In this document: in pieces, positions 48,977-57,852 of the stretch
How positions within the stretch are numbered: position 1 is the first letter of the stretch
How the letters are laid out: each line of letters starts with the position of its first letter
Origin: Geranomyces variabilis
Lineage: Eukaryota > Chytridiomycota > Chytridiomycetes > Spizellomycetales > Powellomycetaceae
Length of the DNA: 64,000 bases
Assembly: GCA_027603065.1 (NCBI GenBank)
Contig: JADGJP010000054.1
Location: 47,342 to 111,341, forward strand
Direction of reading: 5' to 3'
Made by a program: the position numbers and the translations under genes
The notes under the pieces: model-generated
What the model saw: the letters and a program-made list of their open reading frames with translations, nothing else
Told to the model about the DNA's origin: nothing
Databases searched by the model: none

Positions 48977-49212
48977 GAATGTCCTTCCGAATAGCGCAGT
49001 CTGCTGGCGAAAGCTGTGGACGCGCTTTGTTGGAGGAATGTCCTTCTGCATAGCGCAGTCTGCTGGCGAAAGCTGTGGACGCGCTCTGTTGGAGGAATGT
49101 CCTTCTGCATAGCGCAGACTGCTGGCGAAAGCTGTGGACTCGCTTTGTTGAAGGAATGTCCTTCTGCATAGCGCAGTCTGCTGGCGAAAGCTGTGGACTC
49201 GCTCTGTTGGAG
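48977..49212. repeat. 59-bp tandem array, four units
   Basis: Four exact-period units starting gaatgtccttctgcatagcg and containing ctgctggcgaaagctgtgga. They differ at a few positions. The core resembles ctgctggcgaaagtcgtgga in the dispersed 61-bp repeat. Confidence 0.95.
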
Positions 49213-49766
49213 GACCTTTGCATCAAGATGGCACAGTACAAATGGCAAGGTCGCGCGCGCGCGCACGCGCGCAAATCTAGTTGCTGGCTAGTTCAGTACC
49301 CTATATAGTTAGCTTCTCTCTCTCTCTCTCTCACACATTACCACAGCCAGGTCATGTTTGTCGCTGCCCTATCGAAATTGGATCTGCTGGCGAAAGTCGT
49401 GGATTCGTTTTGTTATCTGTCATTTCAAATAAATACAATCATCACGCCGCGGGCTTGAAACCACATGGTACGTGAAAAATTGAAGTGCACACCGCAAGAA
49501 CTGCTGCAAGTAAGGTGCACTCCTGTGGGCCCACTCACTCCGCGCCTTGGGGCTTCCGTCCTGGGCGGCTCCCGGGTTTAACTTCACTTTCTCTTTGTCA
49601 ATGCCTGTGGCGAGCTGCGGAGAGCTCTTTGACGGATGCACAGGTGGCGAAATGGGACTGATAAGCGCTAGTTTGCGAAATCCTTTCTCTTCAATGTAAC
49701 GCTTTTTACAGTACAAAACCAATACAGTGAAACATATGTGTTCAGCTTGAACGTCCCTAACCAGCA
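49213..49766. other. Intergenic with dispersed repeat
   Basis: Holds a (CG)-rich run at 49252-49271, a (CT)n stretch near 49315-49332 and the second copy of the 61-bp repeat. No gene seen. Confidence 0.4.
49354..49414 (+). repeat. Dispersed 61-bp repeat, copy 2
   Basis: 59 of 61 positions match 39461-39521. It lies about 140 bp after the related 59-bp tandem array. Confidence 0.9.
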
Positions 49767-51647
49767 TCACGCGTTTCTGGCACTGGGAGGCAAGTACTCC
49801 TCCTCAAGGAACGCAAACAGCTCCTCCTCGCTTTTCAAGTGAGTAACGTAGTTGCCTAAACACGAATAAGGCCAGGTTAGCCTGCTGCACCTCATTCTGT
49901 CTTGGAGTCCCACTTTACCTCGACGGTCCTCGATAAAGTCCTTGCGCAGTGTGTATCCTTTCCTGTCAGCCGCCTCTCGCAAGCGACGGATGAACTTGCC
50001 GCTTCCAGTGTCTATGAACAGCCTGTACCAGTGCAAGTCGTACGGGTTCATGTGCATAAAGATTCGTCGGTGGGGGCTGGTATCGTTAAGGCGGCAAACA
50101 CCCTGCGCGTAAAGGAAAGGAGCATCCGGTTACTCACAGTTATAGAAGGAAGCGAGGAGGGAGACTGTAACGACTGCTTTCCATACGCTGTAATCAGTCT
50201 GTCCAGGCGTGTGAGTCACGTCATGGACAAACAAGCCGTCAGCGACAAGGCTCTCACGAATTTTTTCCAGCATAGCGCCGCCCTTTTTCCACGAGTCACG
50301 GGGCTTGCTTTGGACATCCTTATGGGCCAGATGGATTATGATTTTCTCGCTCATGGGTGCTCCGCGGCGGTAGCTGCCCGCAAAGTCGACCTCAATGACC
50401 GGATCGACGGCTTCGGCCGCGTCGCGGATCTTGTCCTGTCGAAGGTTAAGGTAGAACGAATGATGTGAGTACCAAGACTCCCAGCCAGTCATAGGCGAAC
50501 TCCGGCAGTTATAGGCGAGCTGCCGGCAACTTAGGCGATTTCACACACCTCCCAAGCCTCCATCTCGGAGCGGTCGATCATTTGCTTGAAGTCTTCGAAA
50601 TACTTGACGCCAGCGAATTGCCAACGGTTCAGCTCGTTAGCGGGCACTTTAGTGATGACATCGTCAATCGATTGGACATTGTAGAACTCCATAAGCTTGC
50701 GTGCGCCTTTCTCTCTGTTGTGGATGGTGTGAAATATGTGTGCATATGATTAGCGAGTCGTAAACGTGCATTAATTGAGATCCGCGTCCCATACCCCATG
50801 CCAACGATCTGTGTCAATAAGTCGACGACGTTTTCGCCGTCCGGCTCCACCTTCTTTGAAGTGCGTCGCTGATTCCTGCCTTTCTTCATCTTGACGTCGG
50901 GGATGGTTCCCTAAACGATGCAGGTTACAACATATTGTCAATTGAAAACGCCGGAATCGCAAGCCCGGCGCATGTAACTTGCACCACGAATGGTTTAGTC
51001 TGAGCTTACCGTGTTGATAAAATGATCAATGTGCTCGGCGTATGTTTTGCCGACGCCAGGAACGACCATGGACGCCATGAGGCCGGACTCGATACGGCGC
51101 GGGTATCGCTCGATCTCGCTCGCAGCACCTTTGTACGAGGCAATCATGAACTTGTCATGAGTGCGCTTGGCCAACGCTATGAAAAGATAGAACGATTATG
51201 AGCTAAGCCAGCCGCACACCTCTAGATAAGTCTCAATGGCTTACTGTAGAACACATTGGCGAGGTCGTCGTTGTACTTGATGACAGGGCGCTCCTCGCCC
51301 TCGGCTGCATTTCCAGCAACCTTGTCGTTCTCGCCGTCGGCGGCCTTATCAGCTGTTGACACCGGCAAGAGACGTCTCAAATTAGAAGGCCTCGCTTCTC
51401 GTCTTTAACAGCCTTGCTTCGGAAACTCAGTTGCAGGCATCGAATGCGTACCTTCAGCAACGGTGGCGGTGCTCTCTACGTTCAGAGCATGCAAAGAAGA
51501 AGTGAGGCCTCGCTTGCCACGGGTGTGCTCCGTGGCACTGCCGCGGACAGCGACATTCGCGGTGGCCACAACCGCCGGCGATCGGACTCTGCAGTAGAGA
51601 CTGGCGGAATAGAGGGGAGGCAGAGACGCAAGACGGTGGAGAAACAT
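49767..51647 (-). CDS. DNA polymerase beta-like (family X), predicted catalytically inactive
   Basis: Eight exons: 51647-51452, 51352-51245, 51176-51010, 50910-50795, 50714-50549, 50435-50187, 50102-49919 and 49855-49767; 424 residues, all in frame. The N-terminus looks like a mitochondrial presequence (MFLHRLASLPPLYSASLYCR). The 8-kDa domain follows (SYKGAASEIERYPRRIESG, VVPGVGKTYAEHIDHF), then hairpin LLTQIVGMG, WQFAGVKYFEDFKQMIDRSE, and palm motif FAGSYRRGAPMSEKIIIHLA. The thumb has GVCRLNDTSPHRRIFMHMNP, LFIDTGSGKFIRRLREAADR and KSEEELFAFLEEEYLPP. Compared with polymerase beta, the metal aspartates 190, 192 and 256 are replaced by K, I and F, and lyase Lys72 by His. The fold markers, including GS-RRG, are kept. 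Confidence 0.85.
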
Positions 51648-52690: not shown

Positions 52691-52794
52691 AGGATTGCTC
52701 AGAAAATGACCTCGCTCGGGAACGATCTGAATTTGAGCAGCTGGATTTTGCGACGATATTAATAAGCTTTGTCCAGTCTGGGTTTCTGTAGGTA

Positions 52795-52884
52795 CAGCCA
52801 GTGGACAACAGTCGGAGACCCCTCTAAAATGTTCACAGGAAGACGGCGGCTGTGATGGGGTCTCCGACTTTTGTCCACTGGCTG
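52795..52884. mobile_element. 90-bp mariner-type MITE
   Basis: Left end cagccagtggacaacagtcg plus gagacccc and right end ggggtctccgacttttgtcc plus actggctg are inverted repeats of about 28 bp. TA flanks both sides (52793-52794, 52885-52886). The interior shares ttcacaggaag and ggctgtgatgggg with the element at 22691. Confidence 0.9.
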
Positions 52885-52886
52885 TA

Positions 52887-53484: not shown

Positions 53485-56400
53485 ATGACCAGCGGCTTTT
53501 GCGGGGCTGAAGCTCCCTCGCTGTCCGTATTTTCGCTCACTCCCGGCGTCACCGACTTTTCGTGGTGTTTCCAGAATGCCGTCCTGTCGCCCGTGCCGGA
53601 CCTGCTCGTCGCTGTTGTCGCCCTCGCAAGGATCGGCTTTTGGCTTCGTCGCGAACCGAGCGGTTTCCCACTCCGTTGGCATCACTGGCTCAACCAAGGC
53701 GTCGCCGTCTTGCTGTGCGCCGTCGCTGTCGCCAACGCCGTTCGTTCCTCGGCAACCTCTCACTTTGGACCCGCCGGGACTCTGCAAAGTGTATTTCATG
53801 TTGTCGCCCTGGCTGCCGCTGCGATTGGTCAAAGGATTGAACACTCTCGCTCGTTCCGCGCCGCCACATTCCTCCTCACATACTGGCTGGTTGCAGCTTG
53901 CGTAGCCGCCATCCGTATCCGCTCCTTTTCCACGCAGCCTACGCCGGCCGACTCTACACTTAAGGCTTTTGCGGGCGTCGAGGTTGGCCTCTTTGCCGCG
54001 CAGTTTGTATTGGAATGTCTTACGAGCGCGGTGGATGACATAAACCGAAAGGCTCGCCCGTGTCCCACCGGCGCCAACGTCAACGTCTTTTCCCGCATTT
54101 CGTTTTGCTTTATGCATCCTGTTATGTCCAAAGGCAAAAAGGCCACCCTGACTGTCGACGACCTGTGGGCGCCCACTCCCAAGCAGACGACAGAGGTGCT
54201 GCTCGGACGGTTTGACCACGCTTGGTGGTCACAGCCTCACGGACAAAAGCACAGACTTCTACGCACGTTCTTTAAAGCTTTCTACCCTCTGTGGGTCGTA
54301 GCTGGCTTTGAACGGCTCGCTTTCATTGTCTGCTCTTTCCTGCAGCCGATACTGTTCGTTCACTTGCTCGATGTCATTTCCTCAGCCGAGACGCCGGTGT
54401 GGGTCGGCTGCATGCTGGCCCTGCTCATGACGCTATGCTCTCTTATTGCCAGCTTAATGGGAGTTCAGCAGTGGACAAACGCATTTCTTGCTGGATATCA
54501 ATTTCGCGCGGCCGTCAACGCCGCCGTCTACCGCAAATCATTCCGCCTGTCCGCAGCATCTCGTCAACTCACCAGCAGTGGAAAAATCACGAACCATATG
54601 ACCATGGACAGTGGCCGTATCATGAATTTCATGCAAACTTCCCATGCATTTTGGTCGACACCCCTCAGCATCGTTATCGCCGTCCTTCTCCTATGGCAAC
54701 AGTTAGGCGTAGCCTCGCTCGCGGGTTTGGCCGTCATCCTCGCCATCTTGCCGCTGCAGGCGTTCATGGGCCGGATCTACGAAAAGCTTTTTAGCAAAAA
54801 GATGGCCGCGGCCGATACTCGCATCTCGCGCATTGATGAGACACTAGACAACATCAGGACGCTGAAATACTTTTCCTGGGTCTCGATCTTTGCCGCACGC
54901 GTGCAGGCCGCGCGGAAAAAGGAACTCGGCGCGCTGCGAGCGCTCGCTGTTTACAACACGTTTGAAACCGTCCTCAGCGCCATCGCACCGATGCTGGTTA
55001 CTTTGGCCAGTTTCGGCACGTATATTGCGATCCACCCGGACGCGGTAATGGACCCTGCGCGGATTTTCGTCAGCATCAGTTTGTTTGCGCTCGTGACTGA
55101 CCCAATATCAGAGTCGTCGCACTGGTGGACGTCCGGCATGGCTTCGTGGGCTAGCCTAAAGCGCCTAGAATCCTACCTCGTTCTCGATGAGCTGGACTCG
55201 CAGGCCGTCACGCACTGGGATCGCAATGGCAGCAATGAAGATGCAATCTTTATCAGGGATGGCCGCTTCAGCTGGGACGGCAAAAGACCCGTGTTGTCAA
55301 ACATTAATTTGCGGATTCCGCGGGACACGCTGACGGCAATTGTTGGCCCGCTAGGCAGCGGCAAATCGACGTTGATTAGCGCTTTGCTTGGCGAAACAGC
55401 GCGCTTGTACGGCGTGTGCGCAGTTGGCGACGGCGCAAAGATTGCGTATGTCTCGCAAACCTCGTGGATCCAGAACGCCACGCTCAAGGAGAACGTACTT
55501 TTCGGCCTCCCCTACGACGCGAAAAAGTACAATGCCGTCTTGGACGCCTGTGCGCTTCGGCGCGATGTCGAGCTCTTGGCTGCTGGCGACGAAACCGAGA
55601 TTGGCGAAAAGGGCATCAACCTGAGCGGTGGACAAAAACAGCGCGTTGCCATTGCACGGGCCGCATACGCCGATACGGACATCTATCTTCTCGACGATTG
55701 TCTCTCCGCGGTGGACAGCCATGTCGCAGCACAAATATGGGACAAGTGCCTTCTTGGCTTGCTGGCTAAAAAGACCCGCGTGCTGGTCACGCACAACTTG
55801 CGGCCTCTCGCTCAAGCGGACCATGTCGTCGTCATCGAAAATGGCACAATCACCGAGCAAGGGACCTTCCCTGAGCTTATCGCCAACGAAAGCGGAAGCT
55901 TCAAGCGCATGTATGATTGCATGTCGGTTGCAGAAGAGGCGGACGCGAGCGATGAAAAAACCCTCCAGCAAGCCGAGGAGGACAAATCTGCGGCTGACGT
56001 GGTGACCGCCGCGCCTCTCACCGCAAACCCGGCCGCTCCTGTCGCTGCTACGGCCGAGGCCGAGGCCGGCGCAAAAAAGGGCGACCTTGTCGTCAAAGAA
56101 ACATCAGCAAAAGGCGCAGTCGAGCGACGCCACTATATCGCCTATCTCAAAGCCTGCGGTGTAGGGTGGTCGATCGCGGCACTACTTTTGGTCTGCGTCG
56201 CGCAGGCGGTGCTTGTTGGCGCAAACGTGTCTCTGGCCGCGTGGTCCGACTCAATGACCGATGCAAACGCCACACACAGCAGCAGCTTCTACTTGACCAT
56301 TTACGCTGCAATTGTGGCCGCCGCTGCGCTAGCTGTTGGCGGCTCATATGCGCTTCTTTACATTCGACAGGGAATCGCCGGCGGACGTGTTTTGCATGAC

Positions 56401-57852
56401 AAGATGCTTAAATCTGTCTTGGCTGCCCCGACGCAGTGGTTCGATGAGACTCCGGTCGGCCGTATCAACAATCGCTTTTCCGGTGATGTCGGCACGATCG
56501 ACGAGAACCTTGTTTCAAGCTACGTACAATTTCTCTCCATGGCATTATCAACAATCTCGATCTTGATCATCATCTCGGCATCCAACCCGATCTTTCTCGT
56601 TCTACTTGTCCCGCTTGGAGCCGCATATTACGCCTTGCAAAACTACTATCTGCAAAGCTCGAGAGAACTCAAGCGGATGAATGCTCTCTCCGCCTCGCCA
56701 ATCGCGTCATACGCGTCCGGCTGTCTCGCCAGCGCCTCGACTGTTCGAGCTTTCTGGCAGCAAGCGGCTTTCCAAAAACGTTTCGCAAAAACATTGACGG
56801 TCAACCAAAGCAGCTTCTTAACTTTTCTCTGCGGCAACAAGTGGGTACAAGTCCGGTCAGAGTTTCTCGGAGCGATGGTCGTTCTCGGTGCTTCGCTGCT
56901 CGCTGTCGTGCGAAGGGACCACGTCTCGGCTGCAACGGCCGGTTTGACAATCAGTTACGCGATGCAGATCTCGTCGACGCTGATGGGCCTGCTACGGGTA
57001 TTTGGGGACGTCCAGAACCAGTCGGTTAGCATAGAACGGGTGGTTGAATACGGAGGCTTGACGCCCGAACAAAGCGTGGTGGTGCCGCCGGCGGTTCCGC
57101 TCGCAAGCGAGTGGCCAGAGGCTGGGGCGATCACGTTCGAAGATGTGCAGTTGCGGTATCGAGCGGGAACGCCGCTGGTGCTCAACAATCTCTCGTTCGC
57201 AATCCGCGCGGGCGAAAAGATCGGAATCGTTGGCCGCACGGGAGCCGGGAAGTCAAGCCTGGCTGTCGCGCTTTTCCGCATGGTAGAGCTCGCAGGCGGG
57301 CGGATCCTAGTAGACGGAGTCGACATTGCAACGATCCCTCTTGAGCACCTGCGATCGCGTATCACCATGATCCCGCAAGATCCGGCAATATTTGCTGGAA
57401 CCCTGCGCAGCAATCTTGATCCTCTTGGCATGGTCGCGGACGATGAAGCACTTTGGCTCACCCTCGAGCAGGTTGGCCTCAAGCCGACCGTGGCCGCACT
57501 GGACGGCAAGCTTGACGCTCTAGTCAAAGATGGTGGCAAAAACTTCAGCGTTGGCGAAAAGCAGCTGCTGTGTCTCGCGCGCGCAATGCTTCGCCAAACT
57601 CGCATTTTGGTGCTTGACGAAGCGACAGCCGGAGTGGACGCCGAGGCGGATGTGTTAATTCAGCGCACTCTGCGGGAAAAGTTTGTGGGCGTGACGGTGC
57701 TGGCGATTGCCCACCGGCTGGACACGATTGCAGATTATGACCGCGTGCTGGTGCTGGATGCCGGCGAGGTGCGAGAGTTTGGAGATCCGCGAGTTTTGAT
57801 GACGCAACCGGACAGTGCGTTTCGGGCCATGGCCAGTGCGGCGGCATCGTAG
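53485..57852 (+). CDS. ABCC/MRP-type ABC transporter
   Basis: One uninterrupted frame of 1455 residues. An N-terminal TMD0 of several helices is followed by the L0 linker (RISFCFMHPVMSKGKKATLT), TMD1, NBD1, TMD2 and NBD2. NBD1: Walker A GPLGSGKSTL, signature NLSGGQKQRVAIARA, Walker B IYLLDDCLSAVD with Asp where canonical NBDs have Glu, as is usual in ABCC proteins, and VTHNLRPL. NBD2: GRTGAGKSSL, signature NFSVGEKQLLCLARAML, Walker B ILVLDEATAGVD and IAHRLDTI. All ATPase motifs are intact, so an ATP-driven exporter of conjugates or organic anions at the vacuole or plasma membrane is likely. The lack of introns is unusual for this window. Confidence 0.95.
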   Translation: MTSGFCGAEAPSLSVFSLTPGVTDFSWCFQNAVLSPVPDLLVAVVALARIGFWLRREPSGFPLRWHHWLNQGVAVLLCAVAVANAVRSSATSHFGPAGTLQSVFHVVALAAAAIGQRIEHSRSFRAATFLLTYWLVAACVAAIRIRSFSTQPTPADSTLKAFAGVEVGLFAAQFVLECLTSAVDDINRKARPCPTGANVNVFSRISFCFMHPVMSKGKKATLTVDDLWAPTPKQTTEVLLGRFDHAWWSQPHGQKHRLLRTFFKAFYPLWVVAGFERLAFIVCSFLQPILFVHLLDVISSAETPVWVGCMLALLMTLCSLIASLMGVQQWTNAFLAGYQFRAAVNAAVYRKSFRLSAASRQLTSSGKITNHMTMDSGRIMNFMQTSHAFWSTPLSIVIAVLLLWQQLGVASLAGLAVILAILPLQAFMGRIYEKLFSKKMAAADTRISRIDETLDNIRTLKYFSWVSIFAARVQAARKKELGALRALAVYNTFETVLSAIAPMLVTLASFGTYIAIHPDAVMDPARIFVSISLFALVTDPISESSHWWTSGMASWASLKRLESYLVLDELDSQAVTHWDRNGSNEDAIFIRDGRFSWDGKRPVLSNINLRIPRDTLTAIVGPLGSGKSTLISALLGETARLYGVCAVGDGAKIAYVSQTSWIQNATLKENVLFGLPYDAKKYNAVLDACALRRDVELLAAGDETEIGEKGINLSGGQKQRVAIARAAYADTDIYLLDDCLSAVDSHVAAQIWDKCLLGLLAKKTRVLVTHNLRPLAQADHVVVIENGTITEQGTFPELIANESGSFKRMYDCMSVAEEADASDEKTLQQAEEDKSAADVVTAAPLTANPAAPVAATAEAEAGAKKGDLVVKETSAKGAVERRHYIAYLKACGVGWSIAALLLVCVAQAVLVGANVSLAAWSDSMTDANATHSSSFYLTIYAAIVAAAALAVGGSYALLYIRQGIAGGRVLHDKMLKSVLAAPTQWFDETPVGRINNRFSGDVGTIDENLVSSYVQFLSMALSTISILIIISASNPIFLVLLVPLGAAYYALQNYYLQSSRELKRMNALSASPIASYASGCLASASTVRAFWQQAAFQKRFAKTLTVNQSSFLTFLCGNKWVQVRSEFLGAMVVLGASLLAVVRRDHVSAATAGLTISYAMQISSTLMGLLRVFGDVQNQSVSIERVVEYGGLTPEQSVVVPPAVPLASEWPEAGAITFEDVQLRYRAGTPLVLNNLSFAIRAGEKIGIVGRTGAGKSSLAVALFRMVELAGGRILVDGVDIATIPLEHLRSRITMIPQDPAIFAGTLRSNLDPLGMVADDEALWLTLEQVGLKPTVAALDGKLDALVKDGGKNFSVGEKQLLCLARAMLRQTRILVLDEATAGVDAEADVLIQRTLREKFVGVTVLAIAHRLDTIADYDRVLVLDAGEVREFGDPRVLMTQPDSAFRAMASAAAS

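Follow-up and report, generated by a model that had tools for sequence, protein, structure and literature searches.

A probably dead, beta-type relative of DNA polymerase in the chytrid genus Geranomyces: loss of catalytic residues and a predicted mitochondrial address

Geranomyces variabilis, a chytrid of the family Powellomycetaceae (Chytridiomycota), carries a gene related to DNA polymerase beta from which the catalytic residues have disappeared. The gene lies on the minus strand at 51647-49767 of the window, by which is meant the whole stretch of 64,000 nucleotides analysed here (C50:47342-111341 of genome G000, an assembly of 23.8 Mb in 91 contigs). Judged by its sequence, the encoded protein is a family X polymerase by descent, most likely of the beta type, and it is very probably a catalytically dead pseudoenzyme conserved in the genus. 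The protein is also predicted to be mitochondrial and may act by holding DNA. For this whole reading, a dead, beta-type, mitochondrial, DNA-holding protein, the probability is put at about 0.5.

The loss of active-site residues is apparent in an alignment of 48 rows, made up of 46 database proteins, including three from Geranomyces, and approximate readings of the genome's own lambda- and mu-type genes. Besides the protein of the window (P0001), the Geranomyces trio consists of the two orthologues that were found, P0002 (HDU87), with 80% identity, and P0003 (G. michiganensis), with 61%. In polymerase beta numbering, which is used for all such sites, each of the three Geranomyces rows has K, I and F in place of the aspartates D190, D192 and D256, while all 45 others have D/D/D. 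The replacing residues are identical across the trio, although adjoining positions vary: position 258 is H, H or N, and G189 has become E, K or D (G in 42 of the 43 database rows outside the trio, to which all further per-site counts refer). The same triad substitutions in both orthologues support the earlier reading of a pseudoenzyme under constraint.

At the site of the lyase Lys72, the trio has H, H and Y. The other rows have K (33/43) or R (10/43), and because of the latter this site alone is less telling. The deoxynucleoside triphosphate (dNTP) pocket is mostly replaced as well. R149 is M, M or T in the trio (R or K in 42/43 others), the steric gate Y271-F272 reads ID, MD or MD (Y in 42 and F in 42 of the 43 others), and N279 is I, I or H (N in 43/43 others). 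K35, K68 and K84 are also replaced. The GDxD, RRIDIR and AEKID sites are therefore replaced, as the original prediction, made from the DNA letters, had it. Its wording that "every catalytic residue" is gone is justified as regards the triad and the lyase lysine, but part of the pocket is still there, namely S180, S188, R254 and G274-S275, along with the glycines of the helix-hairpin-helix (HhH) motifs.

A different splicing pattern or frame as the source of the missing aspartates was ruled out. With about 60 bases of flank included, exons 6 and 7 contain no G[DE]x[DE] whatever the frame, and their sole R[ILV]D, an RLD, lies in another frame and is not part of the RRID motif. Thus, a shifted frame or boundary in this region does not restore the aspartates.

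The gene was rebuilt from the raw DNA. Eight exons encode a product of 424 residues that ends at a TGA stop, and the coding sequence coincides exactly with 49767-51647; the coordinates, the eight in-frame exons and the motif descriptions given originally are all correct. The seven introns are GT-AG and 63-113 bases long. In a protein database search, the product was 100% identical over 100% of its length to HDU88_007309 of G. variabilis (P0001). The parts of the gene, all on the minus strand, are as follows.

51452..51647, minus strand: exon 1, predicted mitochondrial presequence (residues 1-65), from the exon reading and composition
51483..51512, minus strand: residues 46-55, RGLTSSLHAL, a motif like that of R-10 (MPP then Oct1) cleavage, at the same aligned place in 3/3 orthologues
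51245..51352, minus strand: exon 2, linker, then the beginning of the 8-kDa lyase-type domain, from exons and Pfam
51010..51176, minus strand: exon 3, most of the 8-kDa (HHH_8) domain, from exons and Pfam
51031..51033, minus strand: His150 codon at the lyase Lys72 position (AEHID), from the alignment, with the coordinate from the exons
50795..50910, minus strand: exon 4, low-confidence loop and start of the fingers (HhH2), from the exon reading and structure model
50549..50714, minus strand: exon 5, bulk of the duplex-binding fingers subdomain, which is the most conserved region, from exons, Pfam and conservation
50187..50435, minus strand: exon 6, first part of the palm, from exons and Pfam
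50325..50378, minus strand: palm motif GSYRRGAPMSEKIIIHLA, with K282 for D190 and I284 for D192, from the alignment, with coordinates from the exons
49919..50102, minus strand: exon 7, end of the palm and most of the thumb, from exons and Pfam
50058..50060, minus strand: Phe349 codon in place of D256 (RRIFMH), from the alignment, with the coordinate from the exons
49767..49855, minus strand: exon 8, C-terminal end of the thumb and TGA stop, from the exons

The fold markers of polymerase beta are kept, as originally noted. All four polymerase-X domains (palm, thumb, HHH_8 and fingers) score above the Pfam gathering cut-offs, and the palm and thumb profiles are matched nearly end to end. In the Pfam scan of the 424-residue protein, BRCT was not matched, nor was PHP at E up to 1; the thumb is the last domain, at the C-terminal end. 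By sequence, the best PDB match is polymerase beta (E 1.3e-34), and the titles of the Foldseek matches to the predicted model are likewise beta. Beta and lambda cannot be separated by fold alone, because the VIA-align Z scores are nearly tied with those of lambda chains (27.0 v 27.4) and the model superposes on beta over the whole chain with a root-mean-square deviation of 13-17 angstrom and TM-scores near 0.5, the 8-kDa domain being placed differently in the model.

Two trees were built, the first from 45 of the 48 alignment rows (P0018, P0031 and P0038 were omitted), and the second, used for approximately unbiased (AU) tests, from 28 hand-chosen rows with the lambda rows trimmed to their last 345 residues. 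The stem branch of the Geranomyces trio is long in both (1.69 and 2.13). A union with the eight fungal lambda rows is rejected (AU p 0.011), a union with all 13 lambda rows is not (p 0.306), and a union with animal beta, at a support of 51/65, is neither shown nor rejected. A misread lambda gene was rejected on the best PDB sequence matches, the Foldseek titles and the rejected fungal-lambda union.

Family X genes that keep their aspartates are present elsewhere in the genome. A lambda-type gene on contig C19 has GDVD, RRLDIW and the lyase lysine, and a mu-type gene on C78 has GDCD and RQVDLI. A second lambda-like copy on C9 (L018 2780-4023) keeps the three aspartates, with GDVD and RRLDIW. 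No HHH_8 was found for this copy in a genome scan that can miss such domains, since it also missed the intron-split HHH_8 of the mu-type gene; the copy may be a truncated or specialised paralogue. No second beta-type gene came up when the draft assembly was searched with the protein and with the palm and thumb families, only the best candidates being scored.

Whether the dead protein is maintained was examined by comparison with neutral change. When the coding sequence was mutated neutrally to 82% and 61% identity, only 11/300 and 1/300 copies, respectively, were free of stops. For the core (residues 89-424), 300 neutral runs were made at each of two transition rates and for each of two distances, or 600 per distance. 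The mean BLOSUM62 score of core replacements is +0.44 against HDU87 (48/334 sites) and +0.15 against G. michiganensis (109/333), and both means are higher than the highest value in any neutral set at a comparable distance. For lambda as a control, comparisons inside the genus score +0.68 (19 differences) and +0.61 (43 differences), and a comparison with 105/330 differences scores +0.11. At like divergence, therefore, the replacement pattern of the pseudoenzyme (+0.15 at 109/333) resembles that of the active enzyme (+0.11 at 105/330). The open frames and the conservative core replacements are signs of purifying selection at the protein level, in agreement with the earlier view that the gene is under constraint.

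Conservation differs along the protein. Between P0001 and P0003, the identity is 22/66 in the presequence, 8/22 in the linker, 42/72 in the 8-kDa domain and 9/24 in the loop, followed by 46/56 in the fingers, 77/114 in the palm and 50/70 in the thumb. The fingers subdomain and the HhH loops are the best kept parts. All three proteins share K190, H194, D272 and K295, residues that the family otherwise lacks at these sites, and three trio-invariant stretches, RDSWK.GGAMLEK, HWYRLF.DTGS and RK.FIED.RG, are unlike polymerase beta.

The protein is probably mitochondrial, to judge from its N-terminus, which is predicted to be a presequence by composition and by an aligned motif. The first 60 residues of the trio contain 7, 9 and 10 basic residues and 2, 3 and 2 acidic ones, and the first acidic residue is at position 40, 23 and 22. 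The R-10 motif, R-x-[FLI]-x-x-[STG]-x4, marks cleavage by MPP and then Oct1. A match is found at the same aligned place in all three proteins (RGLTSSLHAL|N, RVITSSLRAL|N and REFSSSPRSL|N), each with an asparagine directly after it. This motif fits such two-step cleavage but is only suggestive, in that it supports import and does not prove it.

The polymerase beta fingers grip duplex DNA through the second HhH. Mainly because the fingers subdomain is the best kept part of the Geranomyces protein, DNA binding is put forward as its way of working, with about even odds. An electrostatic argument for DNA binding was dropped, as the net charge of the core (+1 to +3) falls within the -4 to +9 spanned by nine other rows and gives no help.

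In protein searches (32 and 17 rows, most of them without an organism name, the first search covering the best 7994 candidates), no row was named as a fungus outside Geranomyces. The lambda search does list Thoreauomyces, Fimicolochytrium, Spizellomyces, Powellomyces, Phlyctochytrium and Cladochytrium. An orthologue in those chytrids, changing at the measured rate, would be only an estimated 30% or so identical, and so absence from other chytrids is not shown. A viral origin was also considered and set aside: a scan of viral contigs with the three-sequence alignment gave 191 pattern matches and no confirmed relative, a weak test as it used two short patterns only.

Several observations weigh against the proposed reading. 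With a replacement score of -0.53 in both pairs, the first 88 residues behave as the core does in the neutral simulations. The pseudoenzyme core lies at distances of 0.155 and 0.396, and lambda, measured from P0047 of strain HDU89, at 0.058 and 0.138 (lambda of the window strain itself matches the same two relatives at 304/324 and 283/324 sites); thus, in the same or sister strains, the pseudoenzyme core evolves 2.4-3 times faster than the active lambda. Invariance in the trio follows the general conservation of PolX only weakly (Spearman 0.16, p 0.005, 313 columns, with C78, P0031 and columns of fewer than 25 filled rows omitted). The mitochondrial type claimed originally is plausible as a prediction from the N-terminus, but the R-10-like pattern also arises when the first 90 residues are shuffled (in 277, 392 and 327 of 2000 cases, or 14-20%). 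The unremarkable net charge belongs here too, as does the replacement of R149, which, together with the loss of dNTP contacts, speaks against DNA binding of the classical catalytic kind. R183, present in 43/43 others and in two of the trio, is C in G. michiganensis. Finally, K68 and K84 are present in only 19/43 and 8/43 of the other database rows, so that their loss says little, and the loss of the whole 5'-phosphate pocket was dropped as a telling sign; the case for lost chemistry is built on the triad, Lys72, R149 and the dNTP contacts.

These points bear differently on the alternatives. The main rival to non-catalytic DNA handling is that the same pseudoenzyme serves another function, its emptied, more hydrophobic pocket and its fold forming a protein- or RNA-binding scaffold in the mitochondrion. 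The replaced dNTP contacts, the trio-invariant stretches unlike polymerase beta and a core that is not unusually basic would suit such a scaffold, while the well-kept fingers subdomain and HhH loops suit nucleic acid binding; on balance, the scaffold is considered the less probable role. A gene on its way out, with its function lost or nearly so, selection relaxed and the frame open by chance, would account for the fast evolution, for R183C and the variable pocket residues, for the neutral-like N-terminus, and for the lack of a named fungal row outside Geranomyces. Yet the frame is open in three lineages and the residues that replace the triad are identical in the trio. Decay is unlikely because none of the 600 neutral simulations at either distance gave core replacements as conservative as those observed. 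Continued enzyme activity from an unrelated or displaced active site is very improbable: the family-novel, trio-invariant K190, H194, D272 and K295 might be taken for such a site, but positions 256 (Phe) and 192 (Ile) are both hydrophobic, positions 189 (E/K/D) and 258 (H/H/N) vary, and no extra domain such as PHP was found with Pfam.

Under the preferred reading of a dead, mitochondrial, DNA-holding protein, a single loss of the polymerase and 5'-deoxyribose phosphate lyase residues would, most simply, have preceded the divergence of the sampled Geranomyces lineages, and the dead beta-type product would have been retained as a protein since that loss. It would be imported into the mitochondrial matrix and trimmed there, where it would most likely hold duplex DNA through the conserved fingers/HhH2 subdomain and the thumb. 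A role as a non-catalytic clamp, scaffold or competitor in the repair or packaging of mitochondrial DNA can be envisaged.

The surroundings of the gene have features of their own. Intron 5 contains a 20-base repeat in about 2.4 copies (50486-50538). At 48977-49214, approximately 550 bases downstream of the stop, a 59-base unit is repeated four times in tandem (94% alike). An intron-free open reading frame of 1455 residues (53485-57852, plus strand), which reads by eye as an MRP/ABCC-type ABC transporter, is head to head with the polymerase-like gene. Between the two is an inverted repeat (52793-52822 / 52857-52886) with 30-base arms, 97% complementary and spaced by 34 bases, possibly a small mobile element or a hairpin.

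Dead polymerases under selection reveal non-chemical uses of the polymerase fold. No paper on a eukaryotic family X pseudoenzyme was among those listed from the open-access literature, and the dead family X cases that were found are prokaryotic and keep their nuclease (PMC9226535). A eukaryotic case that has no known catalytic site left and is likely to be mitochondrial would allow a clean test of non-catalytic mitochondrial DNA handling. Tentatively, the protein may be the first family X pseudoenzyme from a eukaryote to lack every catalytic centre, and a dedicated mitochondrial DNA-binding factor derived from a repair polymerase. It would also place a beta-type gene in a fungus, whereas multicellular fungi are described as lacking polymerase beta (PMC12828229).

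Among known systems, eukaryotic DNA polymerase beta is the best match in sequence and fold, and shares the order of 8-kDa domain, fingers, palm and thumb and the lack of a BRCT match. Unlike it, the Geranomyces protein is without the triad and the lyase lysine, has an altered dNTP pocket and has gained a presequence-like N-terminal stretch. Trypanosomatid mitochondrial enzymes are also beta-type and share the mitochondrial location, which in Geranomyces is only predicted; they are reported to be active polymerases and lyases (PMC8375306), in contrast to the Geranomyces protein, which is without the residues.

Prokaryotic PolX proteins with altered triads, as described in PMC9226535, are numerous (Deinococcus, Bacteroidetes), and the two tested were polymerase-inactive and exonuclease-active. 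Like the Geranomyces protein, they belong to family X, have the triad, steric gate and N279 replaced, and have been kept in evolution. However, they keep the PHP 3'-5' exonuclease, often have deletions in the palm or fingers, and show no specific alteration of the lyase and PHP domains. The Geranomyces protein, by contrast, gives no match to PHP, is changed at the lyase site and matches almost the whole of the palm and thumb profiles. A further parallel from the same paper is ImuB, a polymerase fold without catalysis that has been proposed as an organising subunit; it differs in being a bacterial member of the Y-family with known partners (PMC9226535).
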